A DNA stretch of 37,438 nt, taken from the IMG/VR virus record IMGVR_UViG_3300034012_001498, positions 1 through 37,438 of that record; one strand, given 5' to 3'. The translations under genes and the position numbers were made by a program. The notes beneath the pieces are model-generated. The model saw only the letters and a list, made by a program, of their open reading frames with translations, did not search any database and was not told the origin of the DNA. This DNA is from a virus. Of this stretch, positions 6,605 to 33,010 are shown one piece after another (the first letter of the stretch is position 1; each line of letters begins with the position of its first letter).

Positions 6605-6611
6605 TTGACAC
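6605..6611 (+). promoter_or_regulatory. TTGACAC element before the accessory operon
   Basis: The 7-mer found before many minus-strand late genes, here on the plus strand and 15 nt before the GTG at 6627. Confidence 0.5.
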
Positions 6612-6626
6612 CTCGTTCGCCCATGC

Positions 6627-7373
6627 GTGGCGACGATCACCCGAAAGTGGAAAAGATGGGTAGCCCTGACTTGTTCACATGGGTCCGACATCGACCCCAA
6701 AGCCCGCGAGGCCGCGCTGACTTTTATTGATCGCTGGAAACCCGAGCAGCGCCTGCACCTTGGCGATGCCATCGACTTAGCCTGTCTGCGAGCCGGTGCC
6801 AGGCGCGATCCTGATGAGCCAGACCGCGCTCAGTCGCTCATGGACGATTTGCTCTCTGGCCTTTCATTCCTACATGAGATCCGCCCGACTATCTATTTCC
6901 ACGGGAACCATGAGGCCCGCGCTGTCGCCCTAACTCACAGCGGCAACCAGATCGTCGCCTATGCCGCCTCTCAGGTGATGGCGAAGATGCACGACGGCCT
7001 CGCCAAATACAAAACCACGATCGTCCCCTATCGCGGCATTCTGCGGGAATCGGTCCGCCACTTAGGCGGCACAGCATTTCTCCACGGCGCTCTCTTCAAC
7101 GTCTCAGCCGCCCGCGACACGGCGGAAACCATCGGCACCCACTGCGTATTCGGCCACACGCACAGAATTGCCGTAGAAGCCGCTAGGACGCACGCAGACG
7201 CCATCGGCTACAACATCGGGTGCCTCACCCGTCTCGACATGGAATACGCGGCCTCGAGGCGCGCAACGTGCGCTTGGAGGCATGGCCTGGCTTATGGCGA
7301 ATATTTGCCTGACGGCACCGGCTGCACCGTGAACGTGCTGACGCTTTCCCCCCACTACCGCCTGCCCCTATGA
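6627..7373 (+). CDS. Calcineurin-like metallophosphoesterase
   Basis: 248 aa, GTG start. Metallophosphoesterase superfamily: LGDAID (Asp47), FHGNHEAR (Asn94, His95), a later His in FLHGALFN, and FGHTHR near residue 174. These order correctly as the di-metal ligands. The first motif, usually D-x-H, reads C-S-H here (CSH at 16-18), so one canonical Asp ligand appears replaced by Cys. The substrate is unknown. Phage relatives cleave nucleotides or phosphodiesters and are often carried as accessory genes. It is the first gene of a four-gene operon next to attP, opposite to the lytic genes, which suggests expression in the lysogen. Confidence 0.82.
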   Translation: MATITRKWKRWVALTCSHGSDIDPKAREAALTFIDRWKPEQRLHLGDAIDLACLRAGARRDPDEPDRAQSLMDDLLSGLSFLHEIRPTIYFHGNHEARAVALTHSGNQIVAYAASQVMAKMHDGLAKYKTTIVPYRGILRESVRHLGGTAFLHGALFNVSAARDTAETIGTHCVFGHTHRIAVEAARTHADAIGYNIGCLTRLDMEYAASRRATCAWRHGLAYGEYLPDGTGCTVNVLTLSPHYRLPL

Positions 7374-7636
7374 GCCGCAAACCCAAAGCAATCGGCTCAG
7401 ACGCCGACCTCGCCGCCTGGTGCGCTGCCTTAGCCGAGCCCTGCATTGCCGCCGAGGCCGTGCCCGCCGGCTGGTTCACGGTGGCCGATTTGGCCGACCA
7501 GACGCAGCGCAGGCCCGTCACGGTAAGCGGGCGAATGCGGGACTTCGTGCGCCAAGGCAAAGCCGAGATGCGCCGTTTCCGCATAATGACCGGGCGCGGC
7601 GTTTATCCCGTGCCGCATTATCGACTGCTACAATGA
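7370..7636 (+). CDS. Small winged-helix-like protein
   Basis: 88 aa. The ATG overlaps the stop of the phosphoesterase gene (ATGA). AGWFTVADLADQTQRRPVTVSGRMRDFVRQGKAEMRRFR reads as a helix-turn-helix: helix TVADLADQT, recognition helix VTVSGRMRDFVRQG, then a wing with MRRFRIMTGRGVYPVPHYRL. It is probably a DNA-binding regulator of the operon or phage. Exact family not recognised. Confidence 0.65.
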   Translation: MSRKPKAIGSDADLAAWCAALAEPCIAAEAVPAGWFTVADLADQTQRRPVTVSGRMRDFVRQGKAEMRRFRIMTGRGVYPVPHYRLLQ

Positions 7637-7971
7637 GCAAACGATTAGCAAAAAAGTCAGTCAAGCGCCCCACGCTGCGCTTCAAGCTAGACGGCGAGTG
7701 GTGGACGGTGCGCGTTGAGCGGCCCCCGGATCGGGAATTATGTGAGGGGTGCGTGGTCTACAAGAAACGAACCATTTACTTCCACCCGAAGGCCGTGAAA
7801 GACAACCTGCTCGGCATCGTCGCGCACGAGCTTGCCCATGTGAACTTCGTGTGCGCTGACGAAACCCATGTCCGCGACCATGAGCGGTTGGTTTCGGTTG
7901 TCGCGCGCTGGCTCGCCAATACCTTCTGCGATGGGAAGATCAGCATCGGCCAGCACAGGCGGGACAAATGA
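7633..7971 (+). CDS. HExxH zinc metallopeptidase-like protein
   Basis: 112 aa from ATG at 7633, coupled to the previous gene by ATGA. The zinc-peptidase motif HELAH sits in GIVAHELAHVNF near residue 60, followed by ETHVRDHERLVSVVARWL, where a third ligand (His or Glu) could lie. The N-terminus is basic (MSKRLAKKSVKRPTLRF). It resembles compact SprT/ImmA-like metallopeptidase domains. ImmA-type proteins cleave repressors, but here that is only a possibility. A longer reading from 7420 is another frame of the previous gene and is not favoured. Confidence 0.7.
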   Translation: MSKRLAKKSVKRPTLRFKLDGEWWTVRVERPPDRELCEGCVVYKKRTIYFHPKAVKDNLLGIVAHELAHVNFVCADETHVRDHERLVSVVARWLANTFCDGKISIGQHRRDK

Positions 7972-8120
7972 CCTTCTGGCCCCTCGTCATCACCACCGCC
8001 TGCTACTTGTGGACGGCCTACGGATTCTGGAGCCAAGGCCAGCCAGCCCTCGGAACTTGCTTTCTGTTCTATGCCTGCGCCAACGCGGGCTTCATGGCGA
8101 TTGCCTTGGGGTGGCGCTAA
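7968..8120 (+). CDS. 50-aa double-pass membrane peptide
   Basis: ATG at 7968 overlaps the preceding TGA. Translation starts MTFWPLVITTACYLWTAYGF, then WSQGQPALG as a turn, then TCFLFYACANAGFMAIALGW. This makes two hydrophobic helices of similar length in a hairpin. It is probably an inner-membrane protein. As last gene of the accessory operon next to the lysis region it could be an antiholin or an exclusion protein. This is inference only. Confidence 0.65.
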   Translation: MTFWPLVITTACYLWTAYGFWSQGQPALGTCFLFYACANAGFMAIALGWR

Positions 8121-8121
8121 T

Positions 8122-8143
8122 CCCATCGAATCCGATGGGTTTG
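8122..8143 (+). terminator. Probable terminator of the accessory operon
   Basis: CCCATCG (8122-8128), loop AATC, CGATGGG (8133-8139), then TTTG, starting 2 nt after the last stop codon. A second weaker stem (CCCGT...ACGGG) follows. The T-run is short. Confidence 0.6.
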
Positions 8144-8305
8144 CAATCCCGTCGAAATCCACGGGTTAAGGGCGGGGACAAATTGCCCCCTCCCCTGCAC
8201 TACTTGTTCACAACTAATGCGTTTTCTATCCGCATCGTCTGCAACGTGCATACGAATGACTGCTTTTTCGACACGTCCGAAAAACGTGTCGATGGCATCG
8301 ACGTA
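8144..8305. other. Convergent region with strong dyads
   Basis: Between the plus-strand operon and the end of the lysis operon. It holds CGACACGT...ACGTGTCG (8269-8291, 8-bp stem) and the palindrome GTCGATG-G-CATCGAC (8288-8302). On the minus strand the second dyad is followed by ACGTTTTT, so it can end the late transcript. No ORF with a ribosome site was found. Confidence 0.5.
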
Positions 8306-8446
8306 TTAGGCCATGAGCGTCAGCAAACGTCTGACCAAACGCCACAAGCTGAACTTCCCCGCAGGGAAACTCGGCGCGTGCCGCTCGACGTAGCCGACTG
8401 CTCCGTAAGGGCCATAGACAAGGCCGCTGTCGGTAGATCGGTGCAT
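8306..8446 (-). CDS. 46-aa hypothetical protein after the endolysin
   Basis: ATG at 8446 with a strong AAAGGAGG at 6-nt spacing. It is the last gene of the leftward late operon. The product begins MHRSTDSGLVYGPYGAVGYV and ends with a basic helix (FSLWRLVRRLLTLMA). Family not recognised. The ribosome site is among the best in the window, which supports a real gene. Confidence 0.65.
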   Translation of the reverse strand: MHRSTDSGLVYGPYGAVGYVERHAPSFPAGKFSLWRLVRRLLTLMA

Positions 8447-8495
8447 AGGTGTCCTCCTTTCATCTTCGTAATAACAAAAGCAATCGCCGTGCCGA

Positions 8496-9032
8496 TTAGG
8501 CGGGCAACTCAAAGTGCGGTCGATCCGTCTTGCCGCCGCGCCAGCGCCCGCCCCATACAAGGCCAAGCTGCTCGCCAATCTCGCCAGCGCGAGTGTAGTG
8601 CTTGGATTCCCAGACCACGTTCTTGCCGCTGAACAAAGCAATGTCGATGGCGCGGCCTGTGAGGTGTCGAGACTTTAGCGTCCAAGTCACCTTCGGCCCC
8701 GGAGCCGTGCGGCCTTTGGCATAAAGCGCGGCCTGTTGCGCTGGCGTCCTGCGGCCTTGGATGACCTTGAAAGTTAAGCCTTCGGCAGCGAGACGGCGCA
8801 AAAGCTCGCGGCCTAGCCGCTGAAGCTGTGGCTGAACGGTTGCCAAGTTTTTTTCACTTCTCGGATCGGCTTGCCACGCGGCGCTCGGCTTCGACTCCAC
8901 CACCTTTGTCGTGGTGCTCGGCGCGTGCGTCGAGGATGCTTTTGATACTGAGGAGGAGTTCTGCGAGGTCGGCAGTGGGCCATTTGGAGAGGCCGCGAAT
9001 AAACGACTGAACCATGTGATGAGTGCTTTCAT
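8496..9032 (-). CDS. Endolysin, M15 (VanY/CwlK-like) peptidase
   Basis: 178 aa. Cleaves peptide bonds of the peptidoglycan stem peptide at lysis. Residues 1-60 are a short hydrophobic/basic start followed by a Ser/Thr/Pro-rich linker. The M15 domain spans about 65-178: IQGRRTPAQQAALYAKGRT, then SRHLTGRAIDIAL with zinc ligands His123 and Asp130, and GKTDRPHFEL with His173. These are the ligands and order of L-alanyl-D-glutamate endolysins such as T5 Lys. No cleavable signal peptide is clear, so a holin would be needed. It starts 3 nt after the stop of the preceding small gene. Confidence 0.88.
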   Translation of the reverse strand: MKALITWFSRLFAASPNGPLPTSQNSSSVSKASSTHAPSTTTKVVESKPSAAWQADPRSEKNLATVQPQLQRLGRELLRRLAAEGLTFKVIQGRRTPAQQAALYAKGRTAPGPKVTWTLKSRHLTGRAIDIALFSGKNVVWESKHYTRAGEIGEQLGLVWGGRWRGGKTDRPHFELPA

Positions 9033-9035
9033 TTT

Positions 9036-9197
9036 CTAAAAGTCCGTCCCGCCCCGGACGCCGATGAATGTGATGCCTTTTTTGCACGTCCCTTTGACCA
9101 CGAGGCGGATCGAGGTGAAGAGGCGCGTGAAGAAGGGCCGCGTGTCAGATGGCGCGGGCTTGCGCGTGAACGCAGCGCGCAGCCACCACGCTTTCAC
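9036..9197 (-). CDS. 53-aa basic protein between lipoprotein and endolysin
   Basis: GTG at 9197 overlaps the lipoprotein stop (GTGA); the TAG at 9038-9036 is 3 nt before the endolysin ATG. The product begins MKAWWLRAAFTRKPAPSDTR and continues with PFFTRLFTSIRLVVKGTCKK and GITFIGVRGGTDF. It is strongly basic and aromatic. Family not recognised. It fills the only gap in the lysis operon and is doubly coupled, so it is probably translated. It might assist lysis. Confidence 0.6.
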   Translation of the reverse strand: MKAWWLRAAFTRKPAPSDTRPFFTRLFTSIRLVVKGTCKKGITFIGVRGGTDF

Positions 9198-9409
9198 GGC
9201 AGGACGATTTTGTCGGCAACCGCCGCCGCGTCAGTTTCCGACTTGCCCCAAGGACGCCAGAACATGACGAACCAAACCTTCTTGTCGAAGTCCGCGCCCC
9301 CAGACATTTGCCATCCGCTTTTTCCGAGCGAAAGGCTGTCGCCATTCATTTGAGGCATTGAGGCGCAACCCGTGGCGAGCAGCGCAAGCACTAGCGCGGC
9401 AAAGCGCAT
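9194..9409 (-). CDS. Small lipoprotein of the lysis cassette
   Basis: 71 aa from ATG at 9409, a few bases after the holin-like stop. It has a classic lipoprotein signal: MRFAALVLALLATGC with a lipobox ending at Cys15. The mature part has NGDSLSLGKSGWQMSGGADFD and WFVMFWRPWGKSE. A lipoprotein between holin and endolysin suggests an outer-membrane spanin subunit, comparable in place to lambda Rz1, but it is not Pro-rich and no inner-membrane Rz partner is evident. Superinfection exclusion is the alternative. Its presence implies a Gram-negative host. Confidence 0.72.
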   Translation of the reverse strand: MRFAALVLALLATGCASMPQMNGDSLSLGKSGWQMSGGADFDKKVWFVMFWRPWGKSETDAAAVADKIVLP

Positions 9410-9411
9410 TG

Positions 9412-9579
9412 TCACTTCTCCCGGCGAAAAACTTCGTAGAGCGAGATGGCAGCAATAGCGGCGGCGGCAATGGCGCTCCATTGCTCCGGGTCGAGTTTCC
9501 AGCCGACCGCCGCCGTGAGCGTAGCGAGTCCGGCCCATGTGCTGCGTTCTTTGAGTCTAGCGAGGATCGTGGTGACCAT
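9412..9579 (-). CDS. Putative holin (55 aa)
   Basis: ATG at 9579, preceded by GAGGGC and a TTGACAC element. Begins MVTTILARLKERSTWAGLA. Two hydrophobic segments, about 14-26 (TWAGLATLTAAVG) and 34-48 (SAIAAAAIAAISLYE), are separated by KLDPEQW, with a charged tail FRREK. The plan 'LKERSTWxGL...LxPEQ...A' is common in small phage holins. It is followed by a lipoprotein, a basic peptide and the endolysin, which fits a lysis cassette. It would form inner-membrane holes that release the endolysin. Confidence 0.78.
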   Translation of the reverse strand: MVTTILARLKERSTWAGLATLTAAVGWKLDPEQWSAIAAAAIAAISLYEVFRREK

Positions 9580-9591
9580 GCCCTCGGCGGG

Positions 9592-9598
9592 GTGTCAA
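9592..9598 (-). promoter_or_regulatory. TTGACAC element before the holin gene
   Basis: Followed after 12 nt (ending GAGGGC) by the ATG. The upstream gene stops with a separate TAG, so TTGACAC is not merely its stop codon. Confidence 0.6.
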
Positions 9599-9601
9599 AG
9601 C

Positions 9602-10132
9602 CTACCCAGCGAGGTCGGTGACGGCCTCCGCACTCGCCTCCGCAAAGCTCGCCTGCGGCACGCCGAAAGACTCCGCTGGTGCGGGTGTCGGGTTTGCGGC
9701 CCACGCAAGCATCACGCTTTCCAGCCATGTCTTGCAGGCCGACATCTTCGGGCCGAGGGGCTTGCCTGCTTGGAGGAGGGCCATTTCAAGGCGTTGCAAG
9801 GCGGCGATTTGGTAGGCCGAGAAATACTTGGCGACCACTTGCTCTGCCGTGAACGTCTCCACATACGGAGTTGGCGGCGGCGGGATCACATAGCCCTCAT
9901 CCACAGGCAGCGCGGCTTCGATGGCAGCTTTGACCGTGGCCTCGTCCAAGTCTTCCAGCACAGGGCCGTCAGTCGCCCACAGGGTCAATCGTGTCGGCCA
10001 GCCCACCTCGACCACCTCCACCTCGCCCGTCTCGCTGTCGCGTTGTAGCTGGTAGGACAGGCCGTGCCATGTCTTGCCGTCTATGCTGCGGGGTTCGGCT
10101 AAGAGGACGTTGTAGATGGTTTCGGTGTTCAT
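9602..10132 (-). CDS. Tail-end protein, fibre-associated, unknown
   Basis: 176 aa, starting 1 nt after the long fibre gene. MNTETIYNVLLAEPRSIDGKTW, a Pro-rich stretch (VIPPPPTPYVETF) and a helical C-terminal half rich in Ala (YQIAALQRLEMALLQAGK). It resembles small proteins next to fibres that act as fibre chaperones or caps, but I recognise no family. Last structural gene before lysis. Confidence 0.6.
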   Translation of the reverse strand: MNTETIYNVLLAEPRSIDGKTWHGLSYQLQRDSETGEVEVVEVGWPTRLTLWATDGPVLEDLDEATVKAAIEAALPVDEGYVIPPPPTPYVETFTAEQVVAKYFSAYQIAALQRLEMALLQAGKPLGPKMSACKTWLESVMLAWAANPTPAPAESFGVPQASFAEASAEAVTDLAG

Positions 10133-10133
10133 A

Positions 10134-12656: not shown

Positions 12657-12657
12657 G

Positions 12658-13978: not shown

Positions 13979-13981
13979 GAG

Positions 13982-14512
13982 TCAGTTTCTAAGCGCGGAC
14001 AAAGCCCCGTCATCCCCAATGGAAATTGTCCAGGTGTAATTGGCCGAGGCTAGGTTGAAGGAGGAAAGCGTGGTGACGCTGGTCAGCACCGACTCGGTGC
14101 CACGGATCACATCGTTGTAGATGATGGCCGAACTCGGCAGGGTGCTGGAGGTGTTGCCGCTCTCCTGCCACTCAACCTCCACCTTGCAACTGACCGAGTC
14201 TTCCGTGTCGGCGGGGAACAACGCATCAATGTTGGCCGAGGTCATGTTGAGCGAAAACGTATAGACCGCGCTTGTGCCGGTGCCGGTTTTGACCCAGTTT
14301 CCCGCGTAGGCCAAAAAGTTTCCCGCGTAGGTGGATTTAAGTCCCATCTTACCGATCGCCCCGGCGGCCAGCTCAACCACGGCCCCATTGCGGACGAACT
14401 GCACCTCGACCGGCGTGTTGTCGCGGCGCGTGAAATAGAGCGTGGAAACCTCCTGCAACAGAGTTGGAGAAACCACGAAGGCTCGACTATCCAGAGAAAT
14501 ATATACGCGCAT
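13982..14512 (-). CDS. Tail protein, unknown
   Basis: 176 aa. MRVYISLDSRAFVVSP followed by beta-rich segments (VEVQFVRNGAVVELAAGAIGKMGLK, YTFSLNMTSANIDALFP, VSCKVEVEWQESGN) and a C-terminal ISIGDDGALSALRN. It resembles baseplate or fibre-connector proteins seen next to fibres in metagenomic siphoviruses, but I cannot name a family. It lies between the third glycosyltransferase-like gene and the fibre cluster. Confidence 0.6.
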   Translation of the reverse strand: MRVYISLDSRAFVVSPTLLQEVSTLYFTRRDNTPVEVQFVRNGAVVELAAGAIGKMGLKSTYAGNFLAYAGNWVKTGTGTSAVYTFSLNMTSANIDALFPADTEDSVSCKVEVEWQESGNTSSTLPSSAIIYNDVIRGTESVLTSVTTLSSFNLASANYTWTISIGDDGALSALRN

Positions 14513-14531
14513 GGCCTTGCCCTCGCCCTCT

Positions 14532-14538
14532 GTGTCAA
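14532..14538 (-). promoter_or_regulatory. TTGACAC element
   Basis: Lies between the stop of the glycosyltransferase-like gene (TGA at 14543-14545) and the ATG at 14512, 19 nt from the start. It is followed by two GAGGGC copies. Confidence 0.55.
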
Positions 14539-14542
14539 AGCG

Positions 14543-15565: not shown

Positions 15566-15580
15566 TCGGCGGTGGCGGCT

Positions 15581-15587
15581 GTGTCAA
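15581..15587 (-). promoter_or_regulatory. TTGACAC element
   Basis: Contains the TGA stop of the Thr/Ser-rich tail gene and lies 15 nt before the GTG at 15565. Confidence 0.5.
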
Positions 15588-20840: not shown

Positions 20841-21380
20841 CTAAGATCCGCCGAAGGAGACGCTCGTTGAGGTGGTGCGGACGAAATCGGTGTTGCTGAA
20901 ACGCTTTTCCTTGCGGATGACTCCGGAAGCCGCGCCCACAGCCAGACCATCGTTTGTGTAACTGATGCCGCGCACGGTGACCTTTTTTACATCGCCGAGG
21001 GTTTCGGAAACTTCGCTGCTAACCGTGTCGAAGGTTTTGCTGTCGAAGCTGAAGGTGCTGCCAACATTCGCACTGCCCAAAAACGTTGCGCTGCACTCCT
21101 GTTTCGGGTTGTAGAAGCGGGCTTTTTGAGGGGGTGCATTTGCAGATCCCGCCTCAATCACCACTTCGTCTACCGATGCCGTAATTGTGGCGTTGAGCAC
21201 TTCGTTGCCGTTGATTGTGCCAGCGCCAAAAGTGGCTTCAATTGTCTCGTCGGTCGTTTCAGTGCGCGTATATTTTAGGATGTTATCCTGAACCGCGCCG
21301 GTTTCGTCTTGAACGGCAAGATACTCATAAGATTTGCTGGTGGTTTTTCCACCACCGGTTGTGCCGTAGCTAATAGCCAT
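20841..21380 (-). CDS. Major tail (tube) protein
   Basis: 179 aa from ATG at 21380, preceded by GAGGGC and a TTGACAC element; a start 4 codons upstream is possible. Beta-rich: MAISYGTTGGGKTTSKSYEY, YTRTETTDETIEATFGAGT, FDTVSSEVSETLGDVKKVTVRGISYT. Size, Thr/Ser richness and place (after the tail terminator-like gene, before the chaperone) fit a tail tube subunit. Confidence 0.75.
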   Translation of the reverse strand: MAISYGTTGGGKTTSKSYEYLAVQDETGAVQDNILKYTRTETTDETIEATFGAGTINGNEVLNATITASVDEVVIEAGSANAPPQKARFYNPKQECSATFLGSANVGSTFSFDSKTFDTVSSEVSETLGDVKKVTVRGISYTNDGLAVGAASGVIRKEKRFSNTDFVRTTSTSVSFGGS

Positions 21381-21393
21381 GCCCTCTGGCACG

Positions 21394-21400
21394 GTGTCAA
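21394..21400 (-). promoter_or_regulatory. TTGACAC element before the major tail gene
   Basis: Followed by C and 12 nt ending GAGGGC, then ATG at 21380. The upstream gene ends earlier with its own TAG at 21411-21409. Confidence 0.6.
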
Positions 21401-23168: not shown

Positions 23169-23170
23169 AA

Positions 23171-23479: not shown

Positions 23480-23500
23480 GCCTCTGGCGGCGAGTCAAAC

Positions 23501-23832: not shown

Positions 23833-23839
23833 GTGTCAA
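23833..23839 (-). promoter_or_regulatory. TTGACAC element
   Basis: Includes the TGA stop of the small glycosyltransferase gene and lies 14 nt before the ATG at 23818. Confidence 0.5.
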
Positions 23840-24399
23840 CAGCCGCAAGCAGGCTTGCTGCGGTAATCGTAAAGGTAGATCGGATGCTCTGCGGCCATCG
23901 CCTCGGTTTTGAGGTGGGGCAGGATCGCCAAAGCGTAGTCGTAGTCCTCGCCATAATCTCGGTCCCCAAATCGAGCCTTGAGGGCAATTTCCCGCCGCAC
24001 CGGGCAAAGGTGGTGCGGGGTGCGGTTGTTGCCGCTCCATGCGGTGTTTTTGCGGTATTTGAGCGAGTGGCGGAAGACGGGGTTTGGTGACCAGGGAACG
24101 CCGTCTCGCTTCAAATACATGGACAAGCCTACGCAGTCTGGCTGGCTTTGCAGGGCGCTCATGATGCAGGCAACGTAATTGGTGGCGACTAGGTCATCGT
24201 CATCCACAAAGACAATGTATTCGGCCCGCGCTTCTTCGATCATGCGCCTGCGCTTCGGGCCGATGCGGTCGCTGCCGGGGTCCACTACGATGCGGGCGGC
24301 GGGCTCGTCTTCGATTTGCGGGACCAAGACGGCCAAGAGTCGCGCCAGCGCCTGCGTGCGGGCGGCGGTCGTGGGGATGAGAATGTCGAGCGTTACCAT
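23836..24399 (-). CDS. Small GT2-family glycosyltransferase
   Basis: 187 aa. MVTLDILIPTTAARTQALARLL, IVVDPGSDRIGPKRRRMIEEA and AEYIVFVDDDDLVATNYV show the nucleotide-sugar domain of a GT-A (GT2) enzyme with a DxD-type acidic cluster (VDDDD). The family is usually longer, so this is a minimal catalytic domain. It overlaps the upstream two-domain enzyme by 7 nt and was probably acquired with it. The two could act in sequence on the same glycan. Confidence 0.82.
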   Translation of the reverse strand: MVTLDILIPTTAARTQALARLLAVLVPQIEDEPAARIVVDPGSDRIGPKRRRMIEEARAEYIVFVDDDDLVATNYVACIMSALQSQPDCVGLSMYLKRDGVPWSPNPVFRHSLKYRKNTAWSGNNRTPHHLCPVRREIALKARFGDRDYGEDYDYALAILPHLKTEAMAAEHPIYLYDYRSKPACGC

Positions 24400-26108
24400 C
24401 CCTTCGCCACGGCGTCAGCGTTGCGGCGAGCAAAGACCTCGCGGCCTCGGGCATTCGCCTCTGGGTTTTGCTGCCGGCGGTAGGCTTCGTCGGACTCCGC
24501 GCCAGTGAATGCCGGGTGGTCGTGGTAAAGCTGAATGTGCCGCCCGTTGAGAACCTTGGTGTCGCGGTAAGCTCGGAAGCTATATTCCGTATCCGACCAG
24601 TAGCCGTCGTATTCAGGGCAGAGCAACCACTCGCGCCCGAGCCACCATCGCCAGTTGTAGCACATCGCGACCATAAGCGGGTCGCCTTCTGCGCGGAATC
24701 CGTCGTGCAAGTGCAGCACTGCCGGCGCATCCATGTTGCCGTCGAAGGCGCGGACAATCAGCTCGTCCCAGCCGTGCGGCACATACAAATCGTCTTGCAG
24801 CATGAGGAAAATCTTTGCGCCTGATTCGGCGGCGGCGCGGGCGGCTGCGTTGTAATTCGCCACGGCAGAGGCGTGTCCCTCGGGAACCGATTGAGAGACG
24901 GCGTGCGGATAGTGCCGTAATGCCTCTACAACCGCGCTGTCGCCTTCGTTCACGCCGAAGTAATAGGCAACCTGGTCGGGCTTTGCGGCCCTTGCTAGGG
25001 CCATTTCGCGCACGGCAATCGCTTTTTCTGGGCGGCAAGTCGGATGGCCGATGGCGATGCGGACCTTGTTGCGTTTGTGATACGCCTTGCGGATGCGAGC
25101 GGCATCGTCAGGTTTGCCGCTTTTAGCCAGGGCAAGGCACTTCAGGTCATGCGCTCGCCATCCGTAGAGTGAGGCATCGTGCGTCCAGCTTGCCTCGTTT
25201 GGTTCTTCCTGCGCTTCCATTGCCTTAACATAGGCCAACGCTTTGTTAGCGGACCCGCGCGCTAGGTGGGCCTTCGCAAGTTCGGCGTAGCCTTCGCGCC
25301 GATGCGGCATAAGGCGCACGGCCTCGAGGAGCGGGCGCTCGGAACCTTCGATGTCTTTGATCCAGCGGCCAATCATTTGGTAGGCCGAAAACTTTTCCTC
25401 GTCGCCCAGATCGTCGCGGCCTGTGGCAACCACGGCGGCAGCCATCGCTTTCGGGATGTCTTGCGCCATCTCGCACTCGCGGAACAAAAACCACCATTCG
25501 CGGCCCGTGCGCTCGGCCTCGGGAATGGCCTCGAGGATGCGCCGGTTGCGGACCACGCTGGCACGCTTGTTGTTGGCCGGCATATGGACAACTTGCAATT
25601 CCATTGCCCATGAGAGCTTGGCTTCGGGGTCATGCTCAACGTCTTCATGCACCGCATTGACCCACTTGCGATAATGCTTCTTGCTGACCAGACGGGCGCG
25701 GCGGGCGTAGCTGCCCGATGCGTCCACGATGTAGGGCGCATAGATCACATCGCCCTGGGCGTCACCGCCCTCGCGGATTAGGCGCAGGACGGCTTCGGCG
25801 GTGGGCGAGAGCAGATCGTCACAATCGGCCCACATAAACCAGTCGGTGTCCTCGGGTGCCAGCGCCCAGCTTTGCGTGCGGGCGGCTGCGAAGTTATCGA
25901 CGTGCTCCCATTGCCTATCGGGCGCATTCCAGTATTCGCCTGTGATACAGCCGCGCTCTTTGGCGATGTCGAGCGTCCTGTCGGGCGATTGGTTGCCAAT
26001 GGCGCGAACAACCGAAACGGAATCAAAGTGCGCTTGGAAGCTGTCCAAGAAGCGGCCAATCATGGCCTCTTCGTTGCCCGCAATTATGCCGAGATGTATT
26101 TTTGCCAC
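24393..26108 (-). CDS. Two-domain glycosyltransferase (GT2-like N- and C-domains)
   Basis: 571 aa from GTG at 26108 (MAKIHLGIIAGNEEAMIG); the ORF continues upstream to 26192 but through two terminator hairpins, so the GTG is preferred. The N-terminal GT-A domain has FMWADCDD (about 92-98) as the DXD site. A helical, TPR-like middle (REGYAELAKAHLARGSANKALAYVKAME) precedes a second GT-A domain with IFLMLQDDLYVPHGWDELIV and GYWSDTEYSFRAY. Two catalytic units suggest it builds a disaccharide. It sits right after the major capsid gene, an unusual place, so capsid or tail protein glycosylation is possible. There is no Shine-Dalgarno at the GTG. Confidence 0.85.
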   Translation of the reverse strand: MAKIHLGIIAGNEEAMIGRFLDSFQAHFDSVSVVRAIGNQSPDRTLDIAKERGCITGEYWNAPDRQWEHVDNFAAARTQSWALAPEDTDWFMWADCDDLLSPTAEAVLRLIREGGDAQGDVIYAPYIVDASGSYARRARLVSKKHYRKWVNAVHEDVEHDPEAKLSWAMELQVVHMPANNKRASVVRNRRILEAIPEAERTGREWWFLFRECEMAQDIPKAMAAAVVATGRDDLGDEEKFSAYQMIGRWIKDIEGSERPLLEAVRLMPHRREGYAELAKAHLARGSANKALAYVKAMEAQEEPNEASWTHDASLYGWRAHDLKCLALAKSGKPDDAARIRKAYHKRNKVRIAIGHPTCRPEKAIAVREMALARAAKPDQVAYYFGVNEGDSAVVEALRHYPHAVSQSVPEGHASAVANYNAAARAAAESGAKIFLMLQDDLYVPHGWDELIVRAFDGNMDAPAVLHLHDGFRAEGDPLMVAMCYNWRWWLGREWLLCPEYDGYWSDTEYSFRAYRDTKVLNGRHIQLYHDHPAFTGAESDEAYRRQQNPEANARGREVFARRNADAVAKGW

Positions 26109-26111
26109 GCT

Positions 26112-26152
26112 AAAAAAAGGAAGGGCCACGGCGAGTGGAACCGTGACCCCTT
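26112..26152 (-). terminator. Rho-independent terminator after the major capsid gene
   Basis: On the minus strand AAGGGGTCACGG, loop, CCGTGGCCCTT, CC and seven T. The stem is 11 bp with one bulge, and the T-run ends 3 nt before the GTG of the glycosyltransferase. This would limit downstream expression. Confidence 0.82.
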
Positions 26153-26173
26153 GGGTCGAAACCCTAAGTGAAA

Positions 26174-26203
26174 CTCCCGGCGGGCCACTCAATCCGCCGG
26201 GAG
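26174..26203 (-). terminator. Second hairpin after the major capsid gene
   Basis: Perfect 10-bp stem CTCCCGGCGG / CCGCCGGGAG with a 10-nt loop, followed by TTTCACTT. It lies 16 nt after the capsid stop codon. With the terminator at 26112 it forms a tandem pair. Confidence 0.7.
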
Positions 26204-26219
26204 GATGAACACACGAGCC

Positions 26220-27068: not shown

Positions 27069-27117
27069 ATTATTAGGTTTTTAGGTTTGTTGTTGGTTTT
27101 TCGTCGGGGGTTGGCCC

Positions 27118-27519
27118 TTAGAAATTCTTGGCGTTGCGGGCGCGCAGGATTGCGGCCTTGTTCGCGGAAAAGAGTTGCGCCACGCGCTTCCAGTCCTTGG
27201 CCTCGGAAGCGGCCTTGAACTGCTCGACGGGGTCTTCGGAAGCGGCACCGTTGCTGGACACGGCCTCGCTGCCCTTGGCGGCGAGAGCGATTTCCAACTC
27301 AGCAACCTTGGCCGACAGCGCGGAAAGCTCGGCGCTCTCAACAGCGGTCGCGGCCTCCTCGGCTTTCACTTCCTCGGCCTCAACGGCGGGAGCTTCGGCG
27401 GGTTCGGATTTGTCGGCGGCGATGGCCGAAATGACTTCCTCAAGTTTTGCAGAAAGAGCCTCGAAGGCGGCTTTGGCATCAAACTGAGCCTCGTTGTTTT
27501 CGATAGACACGTCGGTCAT
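27118..27519 (-). CDS. Possible nested scaffold protein (internal start, in frame)
   Basis: 133 aa from ATG at 27519 (MTDVSIENNEAQFDAKAAFE). It would be the scaffold half of the protease gene, made on its own as lambda Nu3 is from C. Support: GGAGGGC lies directly before the ATG, and TTGACAC lies 13 nt upstream. The GAGGGC and spacing are identical to the signals of the gpW-like and major tail genes. In this copy TTGAC is read in frame as Val-Asp rather than as a stop. Confidence 0.6.
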   Translation of the reverse strand: MTDVSIENNEAQFDAKAAFEALSAKLEEVISAIAADKSEPAEAPAVEAEEVKAEEAATAVESAELSALSAKVAELEIALAAKGSEAVSSNGAASEDPVEQFKAASEAKDWKRVAQLFSANKAAILRARNAKNF

Positions 27520-28002
27520 GCCCTCCGCGCTGGTGTCAACTGGATGCTTGAAATCTTTGTGCATCCGATCCAACGGCTCGGTGCCGGCGCGGAACACGCC
27601 CTCGCGGTTCGCAGCGGGACGGCTAACGAGGTCTACGGAAACCAGATTTTCGACGCGGGCAAAACGGCGGTCGCCCACTTCTTCGGGCTTGCCACTGAAG
27701 GCCATGCTGAATCCAACGCGGCCAGGCGCTTTAGAAAGAATCTCCGCGTAAAACTCGGCCTGCGGGTGAGCCGAAAGCAGTTCCAAATCGGCGCGCAGTT
27801 GGTCTTCCTCGATGCGGAAGTTGCTGAGAAGGCCGATGAGCGAATCAATCGACTCGTCGTGATCCACGAAAACCTTGACCGGGGAACCGGCCACGCCAGC
27901 CTGCTCCGCTTGAAGTAGGGTGGTATCGTCCACGAACATTTCGTGGCCTAGCGCAGGGCCGACTGTTGCTACGCTGATTCCTTCAAACTTGAGTGCCGCC
28001 AT
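27118..28002 (-). CDS. Capsid maturation protease fused to scaffold
   Basis: 294 aa. The first 150 residues form a prohead protease: VFVDHDESIDSLIGLLSNFRI (His48 as catalytic base), APGRVGFSMAFSG (Ser99 as nucleophile) and VDLVSRPAANREGVF. From about 162 the sequence is acidic, Ala/Glu-rich coiled coil (KLEEVISAIAADKSEPAEAP ... ELSALSAKVAELEIALAAK), typical of scaffold, ending with a basic tail (AAILRARNAKNF). Fused protease-scaffolds are known; lambda makes a separate scaffold (Nu3) from an internal start. Here Met162 follows GGAGGGC and a TTGACAC element. Confidence 0.85.
   Translation of the reverse strand: MAALKFEGISVATVGPALGHEMFVDDTTLLQAEQAGVAGSPVKVFVDHDESIDSLIGLLSNFRIEEDQLRADLELLSAHPQAEFYAEILSKAPGRVGFSMAFSGKPEEVGDRRFARVENLVSVDLVSRPAANREGVFRAGTEPLDRMHKDFKHPVDTSAEGMTDVSIENNEAQFDAKAAFEALSAKLEEVISAIAADKSEPAEAPAVEAEEVKAEEAATAVESAELSALSAKVAELEIALAAKGSEAVSSNGAASEDPVEQFKAASEAKDWKRVAQLFSANKAAILRARNAKNF
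27533..27539 (-). promoter_or_regulatory. TTGACAC element inside the protease gene
   Basis: The only minus-strand copy inside an open frame. It lies 13 nt before the internal ATG at 27519. Confidence 0.6.
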
Positions 28003-28019
28003 ACTTGGGCGGCGTCATG

Positions 28020-29540
28020 TCAAGCGTCGGGCTTCTTCTCGGTCTTCTTGCGCCTGTAGATGCGCTTCTTTTTGCGGGCGCGTTCTGAAAACTCTGCGGC
28101 TTGCGGCTCGGGGGTGGAGGCGGGCGGAGTTGAACCGCCGTCCCCTGCGGGGAGCACAGGGTCGATAACCGTCGCCCCCTCATTGCGCTCGACGCCGACA
28201 ATGATGCCGAGCTCGTTGGCAAACTGGCGCTCGGCGGCGATTTCCTGCATGGCCGTCTTCCAATCCAAGCCCTGCTCGCCAAAGAAGTCGGCCAGGGTCA
28301 TCAAGCCCGCTTTCACATCGTCGCGCCGAGCGGTGGCCTCGCGCCCCACGTCCACGGTGATGCTGCGCGGAGTCTGCCAATGCACGCTGCGCCAGTTCGG
28401 ATTCTGCGGCAGTTCGCGGCGGCGCATGGCGTTGGCAATCGCGTAGTTCCAGAGCTTGCCAAGGAAGGAGGAGATAAGAACGTCTTGCCGGGCGGCAAAG
28501 GCGCGGGCGGCTTTTTGAATAATGAAACGCTGGGCCACGCCACCAACAGCGGAGGTGTCCCAGATAAATTCGTAAGGCAGGCCGAGGCCGAGGGCGGCGG
28601 CGCGGATGTATTGCTCGAGGTGCGCGTCCAACTTCTCGTTGGGGCGGTTCATCATAAACGACTCGATGCGCTCGGTCGCCTTGAGGCGCGGGATCATGCC
28701 GCCGCCGAAAACCGTTTCGCGGGTCAGGCTTTCGCCCGTGCTCTTGGACAAGTCGCCAAAGAATCCTTCGGCCCCCACCCCGCCCTGCGCGTTCTGCACT
28801 ACCAAGCCGATGCTGCTGCCGATCTTGGCGGCCTGCATCTCGAAACGCAGAAGTTCGTCGCGGTCGAGGAGGTTGTTGAGCGCCACGGCCACGGCGGGAT
28901 AACCGCGCACTTGGTCGGGGCGTTCGGGTTCGTAGACGTGAAGCATCAGATCCGCCTGGATGCGGCGGCTGGTGCGGTTGCTGAAGGTGTCGCCCTCGAC
29001 CACATGGTAAGCGAGCGGACGCGCAAAGCGGTCGAGACTTACGCCGTCAATGATCTGGTCGGCCTTGTCGGGCGGGTTGGCTACGCGGTGCGACTCGACC
29101 ACTTGAACGGCGGGCATCCCGTCGCGTTTGTTGGTCAGGATGCAAAAGATTTCGCCGTCACGGTCAATGGCTTCGGAGACGAGCATTTGCAGCCGGCGCA
29201 TATCGTGGCGCTCGCTAATTTCGGGCGACTTGCTCCAGTTATCCCACCACGCTTCGGCGGCATCATCCCACGCGGGATCGCCGCTGTTGGCCTGCGGAGC
29301 GATGGCCGAGCCGACCGAGTAGGTCGCCTTGTCGCGGATGGCCGAGCGGACGATGGCGTTGTTGTAGAAAAGTTTGCGCGAAAGGCCGAGCAGGCGAACG
29401 CGGTCGCCATTGGAAATGTCCACCTTGCTGTCCTGCGCCTGCGACTGCACCCATGCGCGTTCTTCCGGTCGCCAGTTGGCGGCTTCGACCATGCGGGAAA
29501 AGCCGAATTGCTTGGCGAGTTTGTCGATCAGTGTTGCCAT
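28020..29540 (-). CDS. Portal protein, lambda gpB family
   Basis: 506 aa. Forms the dodecameric portal for DNA entry and exit. GDRVRLLGLSRKLFYNNAIVRSAIRDKATYSVGS, VSEAIDRDGEIFCIL, QVVESHRVANPPDK, MLHVYEPERPDQVRGYP and LPYEFIWDTS are typical of phage portals of the gpB type (PF05136). The C-terminus is basic (FSERARKKKRIYRRKKTEKK). It overlaps nothing but starts 1 nt after the gpW-like stop. Gene order is TerL-gpW-portal-protease-capsid. Confidence 0.88.
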   Translation of the reverse strand: MATLIDKLAKQFGFSRMVEAANWRPEERAWVQSQAQDSKVDISNGDRVRLLGLSRKLFYNNAIVRSAIRDKATYSVGSAIAPQANSGDPAWDDAAEAWWDNWSKSPEISERHDMRRLQMLVSEAIDRDGEIFCILTNKRDGMPAVQVVESHRVANPPDKADQIIDGVSLDRFARPLAYHVVEGDTFSNRTSRRIQADLMLHVYEPERPDQVRGYPAVAVALNNLLDRDELLRFEMQAAKIGSSIGLVVQNAQGGVGAEGFFGDLSKSTGESLTRETVFGGGMIPRLKATERIESFMMNRPNEKLDAHLEQYIRAAALGLGLPYEFIWDTSAVGGVAQRFIIQKAARAFAARQDVLISSFLGKLWNYAIANAMRRRELPQNPNWRSVHWQTPRSITVDVGREATARRDDVKAGLMTLADFFGEQGLDWKTAMQEIAAERQFANELGIIVGVERNEGATVIDPVLPAGDGGSTPPASTPEPQAAEFSERARKKKRIYRRKKTEKKPDA

Positions 29541-29541
29541 G

Positions 29542-29802
29542 TCAGTAGACCCCGTATTGGGCGCGGCTGCATCTGTTGTTGCCGATCTTGCCTGCGTTGA
29601 TGGCGAGGGCCGTCTCGATGAGGCCGAGCATTTCCCAGGCGTTGTAGGTTTGCTGAAGCGTTACGGAGCGCCCGCCCACGCTGCTTGACACGACGAATGC
29701 CTGTGACGCGCCTCCCGCGACGATCTGCGATTTGCAGGCCGTCTTTAAGTCGGACAGTTCCTCAGAAGAAAAGCATGAGGCGAGAATCGCCGCGTCGGTC
29801 AT
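29542..29802 (-). CDS. gpW-like head-tail joining protein
   Basis: 86 aa. Lies between the terminase large subunit and portal, as lambda gpW does. LASCFSSEELSDLKTACKSQIVAGG, a beta hairpin (FVVSSSVGGRSVTLQ) and QTYNAWEMLGLIETALA follow the helix-hairpin-helix plan of gpW (68 aa), a little longer. It is needed to stabilise DNA-filled heads. The start is preceded by GAGGGC and TTGACAC. Confidence 0.75.
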   Translation of the reverse strand: MTDAAILASCFSSEELSDLKTACKSQIVAGGASQAFVVSSSVGGRSVTLQQTYNAWEMLGLIETALAINAGKIGNNRCSRAQYGVY

Positions 29803-29815
29803 GCCCTCGTTGCTT

Positions 29816-29822
29816 GTGTCAA
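29816..29822 (-). promoter_or_regulatory. TTGACAC element before the gpW-like gene
   Basis: Includes the terminase stop TGA (29821-29819). It is 13 nt before ATG 29802, with GAGGGC next to the ATG. Confidence 0.55.
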
Positions 29823-31561
29823 GGGGTGGCGTTTTGTGCGCGGAAGGCCGACAAGAAGCAATCCATGTAAACCAGCGCCATTTTTTCGCAGTCGGCCAAG
29901 TGGTTCGGGCCGAATCTCTGCCACTTCTTTTCGTCCTTATCGTCTACCAGCGCCTCGTTTTGCATCTGCGAAACGTAGTCCTTGGCTAAGTCTCGCGGCA
30001 GATACCACGGCACGCGGCCATCCCTGAGAACATCGTGGTAAAGCCGCTCCTGCCAGAGCAGGGCGTCGAAGCGCATTTGGCGGATGGTGCGGGTGCCGTC
30101 GATCTGAAGCTCGCCCGTCTCCCACGGTTTCAAAGACGAGTTGTGCTTCTTGGTTCGGCCAAAGGCCGCGCAGAATTTGCCGGCGGTCCCGAAGACAAAG
30201 TTGTAAACCCCCGATGTGGCCTTGGCCGCATACCCCGCGTCCACAATGCCCCAGTTGCAATTAAGCTCGCGGAACTTCTCTGACAACCCGCTCCACCCCA
30301 AGGCAGACCCGTATTGCACCAGATAGCTACTCCCGTCTTCGTTGAGTTGGCGAACCAACCACCACAATTCGGTTTGCTGCACGTCCACGGCCATGAGTCG
30401 GGCCAGCACCCCGTCACTCGGCGGTTGCCCCAGCAGATACTTGGGCGAGGCGTCGATGCGCTCGCGGATCATGGCGGTCGTAATGCGTGAGCCGTCCATC
30501 TTCCAGGGCAAGGCCAACTCTCGGTTAAAGAAATCCTGCAAGCCCCCGGCAGTCTCGCGGTCCTGCAAAAACTTGACGGCCAAGTCCGACCATTTGCGCC
30601 AAGGCGAATAAAGCGACGAAAGGTAATAGCTTCTGCGCCCGGCCTCGGCGGCGAAGTCTGTGGCCTGCCATTTCCCGCGCTCCAACATCTCGCGCTTGTC
30701 GGGCTCGGCATGGGCGTGGCCGCACTTGGGGCAAACGCACCGGGCGGTTTCCGCCACGGTCTGCATATTCCAGCCGTTCTCTTGCTGGGCCGACTCGTCC
30801 CATTTGATGTTTTCCCACTCCAAGGCCCACGCCTCGCCGCACCCCAAGCAAGGCACAAAGTATTTCCTTTGGTCGCCCTTCAGCCATTCCGTCCAAATCG
30901 CGCCGTTCTCATAGGTCGGCGTCGAGGTGCAAACGATCAGGTGATTCGGAAAGGTTGTCGTGCGCGCCTCGGCAAGCTGGATCGGGCTGGCCTCTTTGCC
31001 AGACTGCGCGGCGAACTTGTCCATTTCGTCCATCATCAAGAGCGAGATGGAACGGCTTGAAAGGTTGGCCGGGCTATTGGACCCGACAAAGTAAACGCTC
31101 ATGCCCCTGAAGTGCTGCTCGAGGATGGTCAGATCGTCGGCGTTGTCGGGCTTGTGAGCCTTGAGCGCGTCCGAGCTATCGACCATTGGCAGCCACCGCG
31201 ACTTGGAGAACGAGCGCGCTAGGTGCGCGGACGGCATGACCCAGAGCGCGGGCGCTGGGTTCTGGTCAAGGCGGTAGGCCATCCCGGCAAGGATCGCCGT
31301 GGTCTTGGCCGTCTGAGCCGCCCACACCAGCGACAACCGCCTCACCGACTCGTCACCGAAACACTCCAAGACCTCGCGGATGTAAGGCGTCTCCCGCGTC
31401 CGATACGGCCCGTGCAAGTGCGCCGTGTTGCCGATGGACAAGTTGCCCTCGGCCCACTCGACCACTCCTTGTTTCGGCGGCGGTTGTGCCCTGCGAGCAA
31501 TGGCCGCGCCTACATCGTCGGCGGTCAGGCTGCTTTTAACTTGTCCGAAAAAATCTGACAC
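29819..31561 (-). CDS. Terminase large subunit, lambda gpA family
   Basis: 580 aa, GTG start within the TerS gene. Packages DNA into proheads and cuts it. ATPase: degenerate Walker A AAQTAKTT (about 81-88), Walker B LLMMDE (Asp178, Glu179), with SSRSISLLMMDEMDKFAAQSGKE. A zinc-binding insertion has CLGCG (238-242) and CVCPKCGH (275-282). Nuclease: LMAVDVQQTELWW (Asp393) and WGIVDAGYAAK. These are the hallmarks of gpA-type (PF05876) terminases, which generally use cos sites. It overlaps TerS by 37 nt. Confidence 0.92.
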   Translation of the reverse strand: MSDFFGQVKSSLTADDVGAAIARRAQPPPKQGVVEWAEGNLSIGNTAHLHGPYRTRETPYIREVLECFGDESVRRLSLVWAAQTAKTTAILAGMAYRLDQNPAPALWVMPSAHLARSFSKSRWLPMVDSSDALKAHKPDNADDLTILEQHFRGMSVYFVGSNSPANLSSRSISLLMMDEMDKFAAQSGKEASPIQLAEARTTTFPNHLIVCTSTPTYENGAIWTEWLKGDQRKYFVPCLGCGEAWALEWENIKWDESAQQENGWNMQTVAETARCVCPKCGHAHAEPDKREMLERGKWQATDFAAEAGRRSYYLSSLYSPWRKWSDLAVKFLQDRETAGGLQDFFNRELALPWKMDGSRITTAMIRERIDASPKYLLGQPPSDGVLARLMAVDVQQTELWWLVRQLNEDGSSYLVQYGSALGWSGLSEKFRELNCNWGIVDAGYAAKATSGVYNFVFGTAGKFCAAFGRTKKHNSSLKPWETGELQIDGTRTIRQMRFDALLWQERLYHDVLRDGRVPWYLPRDLAKDYVSQMQNEALVDDKDEKKWQRFGPNHLADCEKMALVYMDCFLSAFRAQNATP

Positions 31562-32037
31562 GCATCAGCAACCAGTTTGCCGGCGTCGGGGTAATCCCTG
31601 TGCAGGCGTTTAAGGCACGAATCAAACGCCGCATCAAATGCGGACAACACAGCCGACTTTTCCATGAGAGCGCCGACCCGTTTCTGAAATTCCAAGAACT
31701 CGCCCTCGGCAAACGAGGCGTCTTTGCAAGAAAGCGAGTAAGCCTTTTGAAGCTCGCAGGCTTCGCGCACCTGACCGGCCTCGGCGGCTCCCTGCCAGAG
31801 AGCGTAGTTCTTGCCAACCATCATGTGGGCCTGCTCGACGCGACCCTCTGCCGTGTTGTCTCTGGGCGAATCGGCCGGCGATACCGCCAGCCGGGCGCGG
31901 CGGTTGCCCGTCACGTTGGACTCATACCACGCGACGGCGTTCTCTAATGTGTCTAGCGGGCAGCCCTTCTTCTTGAGTTGGCTAACCCTGCCGATGGTGA
32001 TGGCCTTGGCCTGGGCGAGTTGTTGCGCGACGGTCAT
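31525..32037 (-). CDS. Terminase small subunit (TerS, Nu1-like)
   Basis: 170 aa. DNA-recognition subunit of the packaging motor. The N-terminus has an HTH-like stretch (AQAKAITIGRVSQLKKKGCPLDTLENAVAWYE), and the rest is helical (oligomerisation and TerL-contact), ending CQIFSDKLKAA. Overlap with TerL and a position next to the probable cos region fit. The start follows TTGACTC, a variant of the late TTGACAC element. Confidence 0.8.
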   Translation of the reverse strand: MTVAQQLAQAKAITIGRVSQLKKKGCPLDTLENAVAWYESNVTGNRRARLAVSPADSPRDNTAEGRVEQAHMMVGKNYALWQGAAEAGQVREACELQKAYSLSCKDASFAEGEFLEFQKRVGALMEKSAVLSAFDAAFDSCLKRLHRDYPDAGKLVADACQIFSDKLKAA

Positions 32038-32040
32038 TCT

Positions 32041-32259
32041 TTAGACCGCGCGGAGTCAACTTTAGTTTATTGCGACTGTCTCAGTATCAGAAGGTGATAT
32101 TGAGACGATAGGGGTGGGTGGTATACTATAGAACGAGCAAACGCGCTAAATTTGGGGGCATTTTCCCGTAGTCGCAGGCTCCTCGGGGTCAGATCTCCAA
32201 AGAGATTCCTTTCGCAAATCTCAACAACGGCCAATGTTGCATACACTTATTGAGATTGC
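32041..32259. other. Candidate cos / packaging region with (A/G)TCTCA repeats
   Basis: 219 nt without a gene between HNH and TerS. It holds an imperfect 12-bp inverted repeat GTCTCAGTATCA (32078-32089) / TGATATTGAGAC (32095-32106), ATCTC/GAGAT (32193-32206) and AATCTCAA (32217-32224) / TTGAGATT (32250-32257). TTGAGA-N16-TATACT (32100-32127) also reads as a plus-strand promoter. Repeated TCTCA half-sites next to terminase recall terminase-binding R sites. Confidence 0.6.
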
Positions 32260-32991
32260 TCACAGGCGCCGAGCCCCCTTGCTCAAGTTCTCCTTGGCCC
32301 AAAGAGGTTGAAGGTTTGTGTAATGAGCAGCAACAAGAAGTTGTTGGCGGTCAGTTAAATCAAACCAAGCAATCGGCCTAATGTGGTCAATGTGCCATGC
32401 CCCGTGGTTTAGCCAATGCATACCCTGCTTAAACTTAGCCTCGATGTGTTTCTTTGCATGGTCAAACGTGCAGCCCAATATCTCGCAATAATCACCAGCG
32501 GCTTTGCCTGCCCGCTTGATGCGTTGAACTTGTGACCTAATAGCAATCGTGGCCTTCCACTGCTCTGATCCTCTTTGCCTGCCGCGCCTCACTGCCTCTG
32601 CTTGGTTTCTTTGGGAAGTCGTGGGCAACCAAAGGCCAAGCCTCTTCCTGAACCTTGGCACCGTATCGCGCGCTTTGCCGGCCCATCCGACTAATCGCGC
32701 TGATTCTTTTGGCATCAGCATGGCTTTGGCGTGGCAAGTAAGGCATGGCCGCATGGGATAAATTGATCTTCTCCAAGACTGCTCTTGGCCCTCGGTATTA
32801 CATAGTCGGGGCAAGCCGAGTCTTTTTCTCCACTTTGAAACCGTGCCTGACGGCATAGACAACAATTCGCCAGAATAGCTTTGTCCGATGCCAATCATTG
32901 CGTGACAAGTGACGCAGGATTTAAGCCGCTCAAACTCTGGGCTGGGGTTAGCCCCACGGAATTGACACCCCCGAAGACTCGGTGTTTGCAC
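32260..32991 (-). CDS. HNH endonuclease with two CxxC modules
   Basis: 243 aa. The HNH domain at about 168-240 has GCTFDHAKKHIEAKFKQGM, GAWHIDHIRP (His200, Asp202, His203) and YTNLQPLWAKEN (Asn226, Asn235). The N-terminus has two modules, each a CxxCH (CVTCH near 26-30, CLTCH near 83-87) followed by an HTH-like helix (SGTVSKWRKRLGL, RDTVPRFRKRLGL). These look like duplicated DNA-binding units. HNH nucleases beside terminase assist cos cleavage in HK97-like phages; a mobile homing role is the alternative. GTG start inside an inverted repeat. Confidence 0.85.
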   Translation of the reverse strand: MQTPSLRGCQFRGANPSPEFERLKSCVTCHAMIGIGQSYSGELLSMPSGTVSKWRKRLGLPRLCNTEGQEQSWRRSIYPMRPCLTCHAKAMLMPKESARLVGWAGKARDTVPRFRKRLGLWLPTTSQRNQAEAVRRGRQRGSEQWKATIAIRSQVQRIKRAGKAAGDYCEILGCTFDHAKKHIEAKFKQGMHWLNHGAWHIDHIRPIAWFDLTDRQQLLVAAHYTNLQPLWAKENLSKGARRL

Positions 32992-33010
32992 ACCGCGCGC
33001 CGGGTGTCAA
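32962..33010. repeat. Inverted TTGACACCC pair around the HNH start
   Basis: TTGACACCC (32962-32970) and GGGTGTCAA (33002-33010) form a perfect 9-bp inverted repeat with a 31-nt loop that contains the GTG at 32991. The 33004-33010 copy is the TTGACAC element 12 nt before that start. Confidence 0.55.

Follow-up and report, generated by a model that had tools for sequence, protein, structure and literature searches.

The window analysed here is a 37,438-base IMG/VR virus record (IMGVR_UViG_3300034012_001498) in which a short repeat, TTGACAC, stands ahead of late genes. We found that the core of this repeat, UUGAC in the message, begins 19–23 nt before the start codons of a recurring set of late genes, and that pairing of the intervening leader with the opening codons, or at times within itself, tends to leave the start codon in or beside a stem. 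Constant spacing to the start, taken with leader-coding pairing, speaks for mRNA and for initiation, and we regard the repeat as likely to be a phage-specific element that controls translation initiation on late mRNA.

TTGACAC occurs 11 times in the window, eight of them on the late (minus) strand. All ten copies listed in a preliminary description of this DNA lie at the coordinates and on the strands it gave, and the variants that it reported before 28002, 23479 and 32037 are real; an eleventh copy, at 29685 on the plus strand, had been overlooked. Its further claim that all copies but one precede a start codon stands for most of them; copy 33004 is doubtful because it forms an inverted repeat with 32962, and copy 6605 is a weaker case. 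The sites are listed below, with distances counted from the first T to the start codon (ORF, open reading frame).

32053–32059, minus strand: TTGACTC, 22 nt before ATG 32037 of a terminase-small-like gene (weak PHROG match)
29816–29822, minus strand: TTGACAC, 20 nt before ATG 29802, the start of a small gene (29542–29802) that lies between TerL and portal
28017–28023, minus strand: TTGACAT, 21 nt before ATG 28002 of a protease-like gene
27533–27539, minus strand: TTGACAC, 20 nt before the nested in-frame ATG 27519 (putative scaffold start) of ORF 27118–28002
23833–23839, minus strand: TTGACAC, 21 nt before ATG 23818
23492–23498, minus strand: TTGACTC, 19 nt before ATG 23479 of a connector-like gene (weak Pfam match)
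21394–21400, minus strand: TTGACAC, 20 nt before ATG 21380
15581–15587, minus strand: TTGACAC, 22 nt before GTG 15565 of a 340-aa gene, with the same arrangement in sequences G714 and G715
14532–14538, minus strand: TTGACAC, 26 nt before ATG 14512, with an in-frame AAG at the usual −20 place
9592–9598, minus strand: TTGACAC, 19 nt before ATG 9579 of a 55-aa ORF (about 9412–9579), which together with its motif is also found in G714 and G715
6605–6611, plus strand: TTGACAC, 22 nt before GTG 6627 of a metallophosphoesterase-like gene
32962–33010, no strand assigned: inverted repeat TTGACACC ... GGTGTCAA, holding copies 33004 (minus; 19 nt before the GTG of a 243-aa ORF) and 32962 (plus)

At gene 13982–14512 (14518–14538, minus strand), GAGGGC-AAG occupies the usual place and the ATG follows two codons on; an altered start is possible.

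Enrichment in the window is positional and does not lie in the raw count. TTGAC stands at −19 to −23 before 8 of the 31 curated minus-strand starts. Two of these eight (27519 and 21380) were selected in knowledge of the motif; if the nested start is left out and the longer alternative 21392 is taken, the figure is 6 of 30. Random ATG or GTG triplets on the same strand had a mean of 0.36 such sites and a maximum of 4 in 5000 draws. The preliminary description had proposed counting the heptamer against shuffled and codon-preserving models, and the two counts disagree: TTGACAC exceeds dinucleotide shuffles (11 versus a mean of 3.53, with 0 of 100 reaching 11), but it is not enriched over a synonymous-codon shuffle in which intergenic DNA was kept (8 observed, 7.2 expected), and neither is TTGAC (33 observed, 43.2 expected). 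Starts with the motif averaged 5.0 in this null (maximum 8), compared with 9 of 32 observed; the null starts still carry the motif because the intergenic copies were kept.

The same placement recurs in related viruses. A TerL search yielded 79 IMG/VR loci, many of them mutually close relatives, and a positional scan of these loci plus the window (80 viral sequences, 2225 first-ATG starts) returned TTGAC at −20 as the strongest upstream 5-mer. It lies at −20 before 117 starts, at −21 before 62 and at −22 before 47, and anywhere from −19 to −23 before 246. Start-linked TTGAC is also carried by group B (L059–L068; TerL 42–43% identical to that of the window) and group C (L070–L079; 38–39%), L063, L069, L077 and L078 being group A despite their numbers. 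Similar sites were thinned before distances, stop codons and pairing were counted, and for these counts (pairing by permutation) group D comprised only prophage stretches with an assigned late strand, sites first recorded under L162–L174 being dropped. The distance from TTGAC to the start is 19–23 nt in all groups studied, exactly −20 at 12 of 13 distinct sites in group C, and the consensus is gUUGACAc with UUGAC invariant. When starts were aligned in relatives, as had been suggested, the distance was held at orthologous starts while the flanks diverged. For the small-gene copy at 29816, the motif stays at −20 in those distinct relatives listed that share at least 70% protein identity, and TTGAC is found near −19 at 33–40%. 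Across the IMG/VR viral collection, TTGACAC-N7-GAGGGCATG was present in 76 stretches, in places several from one contig, and the version with N8–9 in one. Among loci fetched with 14-base patterns, where only the other sites were compared, signal loci (which include group A and B relatives) had TTGAC 65 times at −19 to −23 and 115 times at 28 other positions, compared with 10 and 89 times in control loci.

These distances bear on two simpler accounts of the repeat. As the preliminary description noted, TTGACAC is too near the starts for a sigma70 −35 box, because a −10 box about 17 bp downstream would by arithmetic fall inside the gene. It had also held that stop-codon use alone is insufficient, which the thinned-site counts in groups A–D bear out. 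The TGA within TTGAC does end the upstream ORF at 16 of 48 sites in group A, 9 of 30 in group B and 9 of 37 in group D, as expected if the motif were a by-product of translational coupling or stop-codon reuse; however, it does so at 0 of 6 in group C, most sites have another stop, none nearby or sit inside an ORF, and TT, C and the spacing are left unexplained. Sites without such a stop mostly refute this account, to which we give almost no credence.

We then compared phage and host sequences. The best named TerL matches of the window share about 30% identity with it, Akkermansia phage Moulinsart being one of them, and a scan of named genomes returned one relative, L080, a Limisphaerales metagenome-assembled genome; on these two grounds we infer a Verrucomicrobiota host. 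A portal search of 387 genomes of L080's phylum matched 54 of them, and TTGAC stands at this start distance in the majority of the 15 portal loci fetched, in a few perhaps by chance. In five of these genomes, prophage-bearing 40-kb stretches had TTGAC at −19 to −23 before 36 of 450 starts, and other chromosomal stretches before 7 of 1829. Three genomes of L080's order had it before 11 of 2199 starts, five other phages (two of them verrucophages) before 1 of 548, and it was absent from the counted first starts of Moulinsart (22,726 of 31,347 bases) and of phage P8625. Start-linked TTGAC is thus phage-specific and not enriched before the sampled host genes. Together, the scan of relatives and the host sampling support the one-orientation, start-linked sites of the preliminary description and show them to be phage-specific and conserved in relatives.

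This distribution also weighs on the idea that UUGAC binds the host 30S subunit directly and replaces the Shine-Dalgarno sequence with no further factor. Precise spacing, at the nested start too, would suit such a signal, yet the sampled genes of the same host genomes do not use UUGAC, and no GUCAA occurs among the 16S tails listed, which makes the proposal improbable. A match of any kind was obtained in 152 of 288 genomes; among the matches listed, the 16S-like tails read CCTCCTTTCTAAGGAG or differ from it slightly. An extended anti-Shine-Dalgarno with GUCAA in the 16S tail was rejected because it was not seen among them. Nor does the element resemble a Shine-Dalgarno sequence, which is complementary to the 16S 3' end and lies about 5–10 nt before the start; TTGAC stands near −20.

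RNA structure provides a second line of evidence. Strong stems around the start are predicted at 33% of 49 motif starts versus 7% of 259 others in group A, 13% of 30 versus 6% of 69 in group B, 38% of 8 versus 7% of 28 in group C, and 19% of 69 versus 7% of 178 in group D, here without a strand filter. When the pairing of each leader with its own coding sequence was compared with permuted partners, 121 thinned sites gave z 7.2 (group A 4.1, C 2.6, D 5.4), and four thinning levels gave z 5.3–7.1; for 300 non-motif starts z was 0.5. For 45 sites collected later, from loci retrieved with a 14-base seed, z was 3.8. Of the 17 signal loci that had at least two sites, this set uses 13, after removal of four that were group A/B-like; 12 of the 13 are related to Verrucomicrobiota phages, and L389, which lacks such a match, was left in. 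By eye, orthologous stems differ in sequence and register yet persist, for example at the protease start. Three such structures in the window are:

32026–32052, minus strand: predicted hairpin with the start codon in its loop
27995–28013, minus strand: possible hairpin GCCGCC-CAAGTAT-GGCGGC at the start codon, seen by eye
21377–21394, minus strand: predicted 7-bp hairpin spanning the start codon

A fixed distance and a hairpin beside an invariant pentamer could also mark a cleavage site for a ribonuclease of the phage or the host, which would shorten late mRNA immediately ahead of each start and produce short-leader messages; we consider such trimming very improbable.

The element is attached to particular genes. 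Most sites in 12 phage or prophage sequences are on the late strand. The motif precedes the small gene between TerL and portal in 11 of 11 cases (three sequence clusters, placed by coordinates), and D398 too has a site in this slot. It also accompanies the connector family in 6 of the 6 genomes that have it, a 120-aa family in 5 of 5, the terminase-small-like family in 6 of 8 and the protease/scaffold ORF in 6 of 6, although the record of G714 does not reach the protease start, and its match is the nested start. A separate protease/scaffold cluster of group D has it in 4 of 5. Other late genes are mostly spared (TerL 1 of 12, portal 1 of 12, major capsid 0 of 10), and the remaining families are mixed or without the motif. 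The capsid, connector and small terminase names come from weak Pfam and PHROG matches, and those of protease and scaffold for ORF 27118–28002, which matched no PHROGs or Pfam family, from gene order.

Within ORF 27118–28002, ATG 27519 lies in frame where a nested scaffold start is expected. A nested motif with an in-frame start, and with Val-Asp codons at the motif, is found in 7 of the 12 sequences and in all four groups (the window, G715, G707, G711, G712, D646 and D535); D448 has one more in-frame site elsewhere, which may be chance. A nested in-frame start needs a start signal and neither a promoter nor a stop codon, and so fits translation.

The preliminary description had instead drawn a parallel with mycobacteriophage L5, in which a phage repressor bound to one-orientation DNA sites, here TTGACAC, would block late transcription in the lysogen. 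Cluster A stoperators (L5 and D29) have a 13-bp consensus, GGTGGMTGTCAAG. At up to three mismatches the window holds 24 matches to it, none at a TTGACAC copy, and shuffles averaged 16.7 matches, with 4 of 100 reaching 24. Phage D29 contains 30 stoperator-like sites at up to two mismatches, with the consensus CTTGACAGCCACC on the sense strand; five end 12–14 nt upstream of a start codon, four overlap one that is annotated (by coordinates TTG) and the others are scattered. The likeness therefore holds in part: in both systems one orientation relative to transcription prevails (here 8 of 11 TTGACAC copies on the late strand), the sense strand carries TTGACA, and some sites lie just before starts. 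The sites here are moreover phage-specific, an integrase gene is present, and a helix-turn-helix (HTH)-like protein is common to groups A–D, all of which would suit a repressor. In contrast, spacing is tighter here than in D29, the L5 consensus is unmatched at every copy, and repression at DNA gives no reason for leader-coding pairing, for which start hairpins were compared in the present sequences only, or for the nested start. Silencing of late transcription in the lysogen by a DNA repressor is thus unsupported, and we hold it to be unlikely; a DNA-binding role may nevertheless exist in addition to the proposed one on mRNA.

The nearest known kind is the start-associated sequences (SAS) of cluster K mycobacteriophages, from which the element differs in sequence, position and structure. 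The SAS, GGGATAGGAGCCC, typically lies 3–7 bp before starts and contains AGGAG (Pope 2011, PMC3203893). In the portions of that report used here, SAS occur at non-structural genes, ESAS inverted repeats did not support RNA pairing, and a role in translation initiation was suggested with the mechanism left open (PMC3203893); the part of a later account used here states that SAS function still requires experiments (PMC12699233). Like SAS and ESAS, TTGAC is a short, asymmetric repeat, mostly in one orientation, linked to many starts of a phage group and absent or rare in the host; unlike them, as far as that report was covered, UUGAC lies near −20, mainly at late structural genes, and with leader-coding hairpins (PMC3203893). 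The SAS consensus gave 6 matches in the window at up to three mismatches, compared with a shuffle mean of 10.1, and its 3–7 bp spacing is not that of TTGAC, which starts at −19 to −23.

Two further systems resemble the proposed control at the level of mechanism. In phage Mu, the mom start codon lies in a stem with a recognition site close on its 5' side, as proposed here, and a phage protein, Com, reads the site and opens the start; in the part of the source used, mom is the target of Com, which recognizes CC(N)2-3GAG within a hairpin loop (PMC6483171). Sequestration of the start in a hairpin appears in our data as a predicted excess over controls, at some sites only and not in group B. The Com zinc-ribbon (PF10122) matched none of 8 records or genomes, nor any of 14 control genomes. 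T4 RegA resembles the proposed factor in that a single phage protein works on the start regions of numerous phage mRNAs; unlike UUGAC, RegA sites are A+U-rich, unstructured and overlap or adjoin the AUG, and the portion of the source used describes no fixed −20 element (PMC3014915). A paper search for TTGAC as a conserved motif at phage start codons found none, and the P8625 genome paper contains no occurrence of ribosome binding, Shine-Dalgarno, promoter or upstream.

If the element acts on translation initiation, the hairpin would keep motif-bearing starts closed or weak, and a reader of UUGAC on its 5' side would set the timing and strength of their use. This reader would most likely be an RNA-binding protein encoded by the phage, or else the ribosome after modification by a phage factor. 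Major capsid above all, and the other genes that lack the element, would stay outside this control. The proportions of virion proteins, among them free scaffold made from the nested start, would be tuned by the element. One gene is a possible source of the factor:

33617–34135, minus strand: candidate regulator with weak HTH matches, encoded immediately ahead of the late operon

It belongs to the only family outside the late operon that this comparison found in groups A, B, C and D (9 of 12 sequences), and is the best, but a weak, candidate. A search of 14 records found the family in 3, and not in Moulinsart, P8625 or 9 others, most of them fragments. AlphaFold returned a model with mean pLDDT 71 and pTM 0.42, which had no PDB match at E ≤ 0.001 (best E 0.3). 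An HTH suggests DNA binding and so keeps the repressor alternative alive at low weight. We can offer only tentatively, and with more doubt than belief, the wider proposal that lambda-like phages of the whole phylum use one phage factor, UUGAC and start hairpins to switch on or set the ratios of about ten late genes without Shine-Dalgarno pairing, the nested scaffold start included.

Several observations count against control of translation initiation by UUGAC. Group B shows no excess leader-coding pairing (z −0.2), and many motif copies lack an evident hairpin, so that structure is not universal. No partner for UUGAC was found: GTCAA is not in excess within about 100 nt in cis, and the complement GUCAA is absent among the 16S tails listed. 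The shared HTH-like family, the candidate for a trans-acting factor, weakly matches DNA-binding HTH domains. Finally, sites and starts were called by simple rules, which will include some by chance, and related sequences are not independent.

The inverted repeat at 32962–33010 is probably unrelated to the start motif. In group A loci its GTGTCAA arm was not seen at the corresponding position; most GTGTCAA matches in those loci fall at one coding place in the small gene and seven fall elsewhere. An antisense RNA carrying GUGUCAA was rejected, as the inverted repeat of the window has no counterpart at that place in these loci. By eye, the repeat precedes an HNH-like ORF.

Other arrangements were seen in the named verrucophages. 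In P8625 (L306), starts 5448, 10772, 15594 and 22442 have TTGACA exactly 36 nt before the ATG, followed at three of the four by a GTATCC...GGATAC-like hairpin, which looks like a different, promoter-like or leaderless arrangement. In Moulinsart (L305), GGGGAATA or GGGATATAG-like strings precede several starts and are perhaps another start signal.

The window itself has a late operon on the minus strand with TerL, portal and, by weak match, a capsid gene; glycosyltransferase-like genes lie within the head-tail operon (23836–26192). For bases 1–25,000, the annotated phage collection held no close nucleotide match. A plausible sigma70 promoter near the integrase region was noted by eye (TTGACA-N17-TACGTT at 4672, plus strand). 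Adjoining the integrase, 6460–6525 (minus strand), judged by eye, is the 3' portion of a tRNA gene of serine type and probably the attachment site; ARAGORN found no complete tRNA, and this remnant could identify the host. An Rfam tmRNA match at 28112–28179 (minus strand, 52 bits) did not reappear in a search of that stretch by itself at the gathering threshold, and we regard it as an artefact.

For uncultured verrucophages, the element offers a recognizable gene-start signal that helps to call starts and nested genes and to tie contigs to a host phylum. If the proposed mechanism is true, these phages would provide a case of phage-wide translation start without Shine-Dalgarno pairing, and the role of start-associated repeats in phages, an old question, would become directly testable by reporter.

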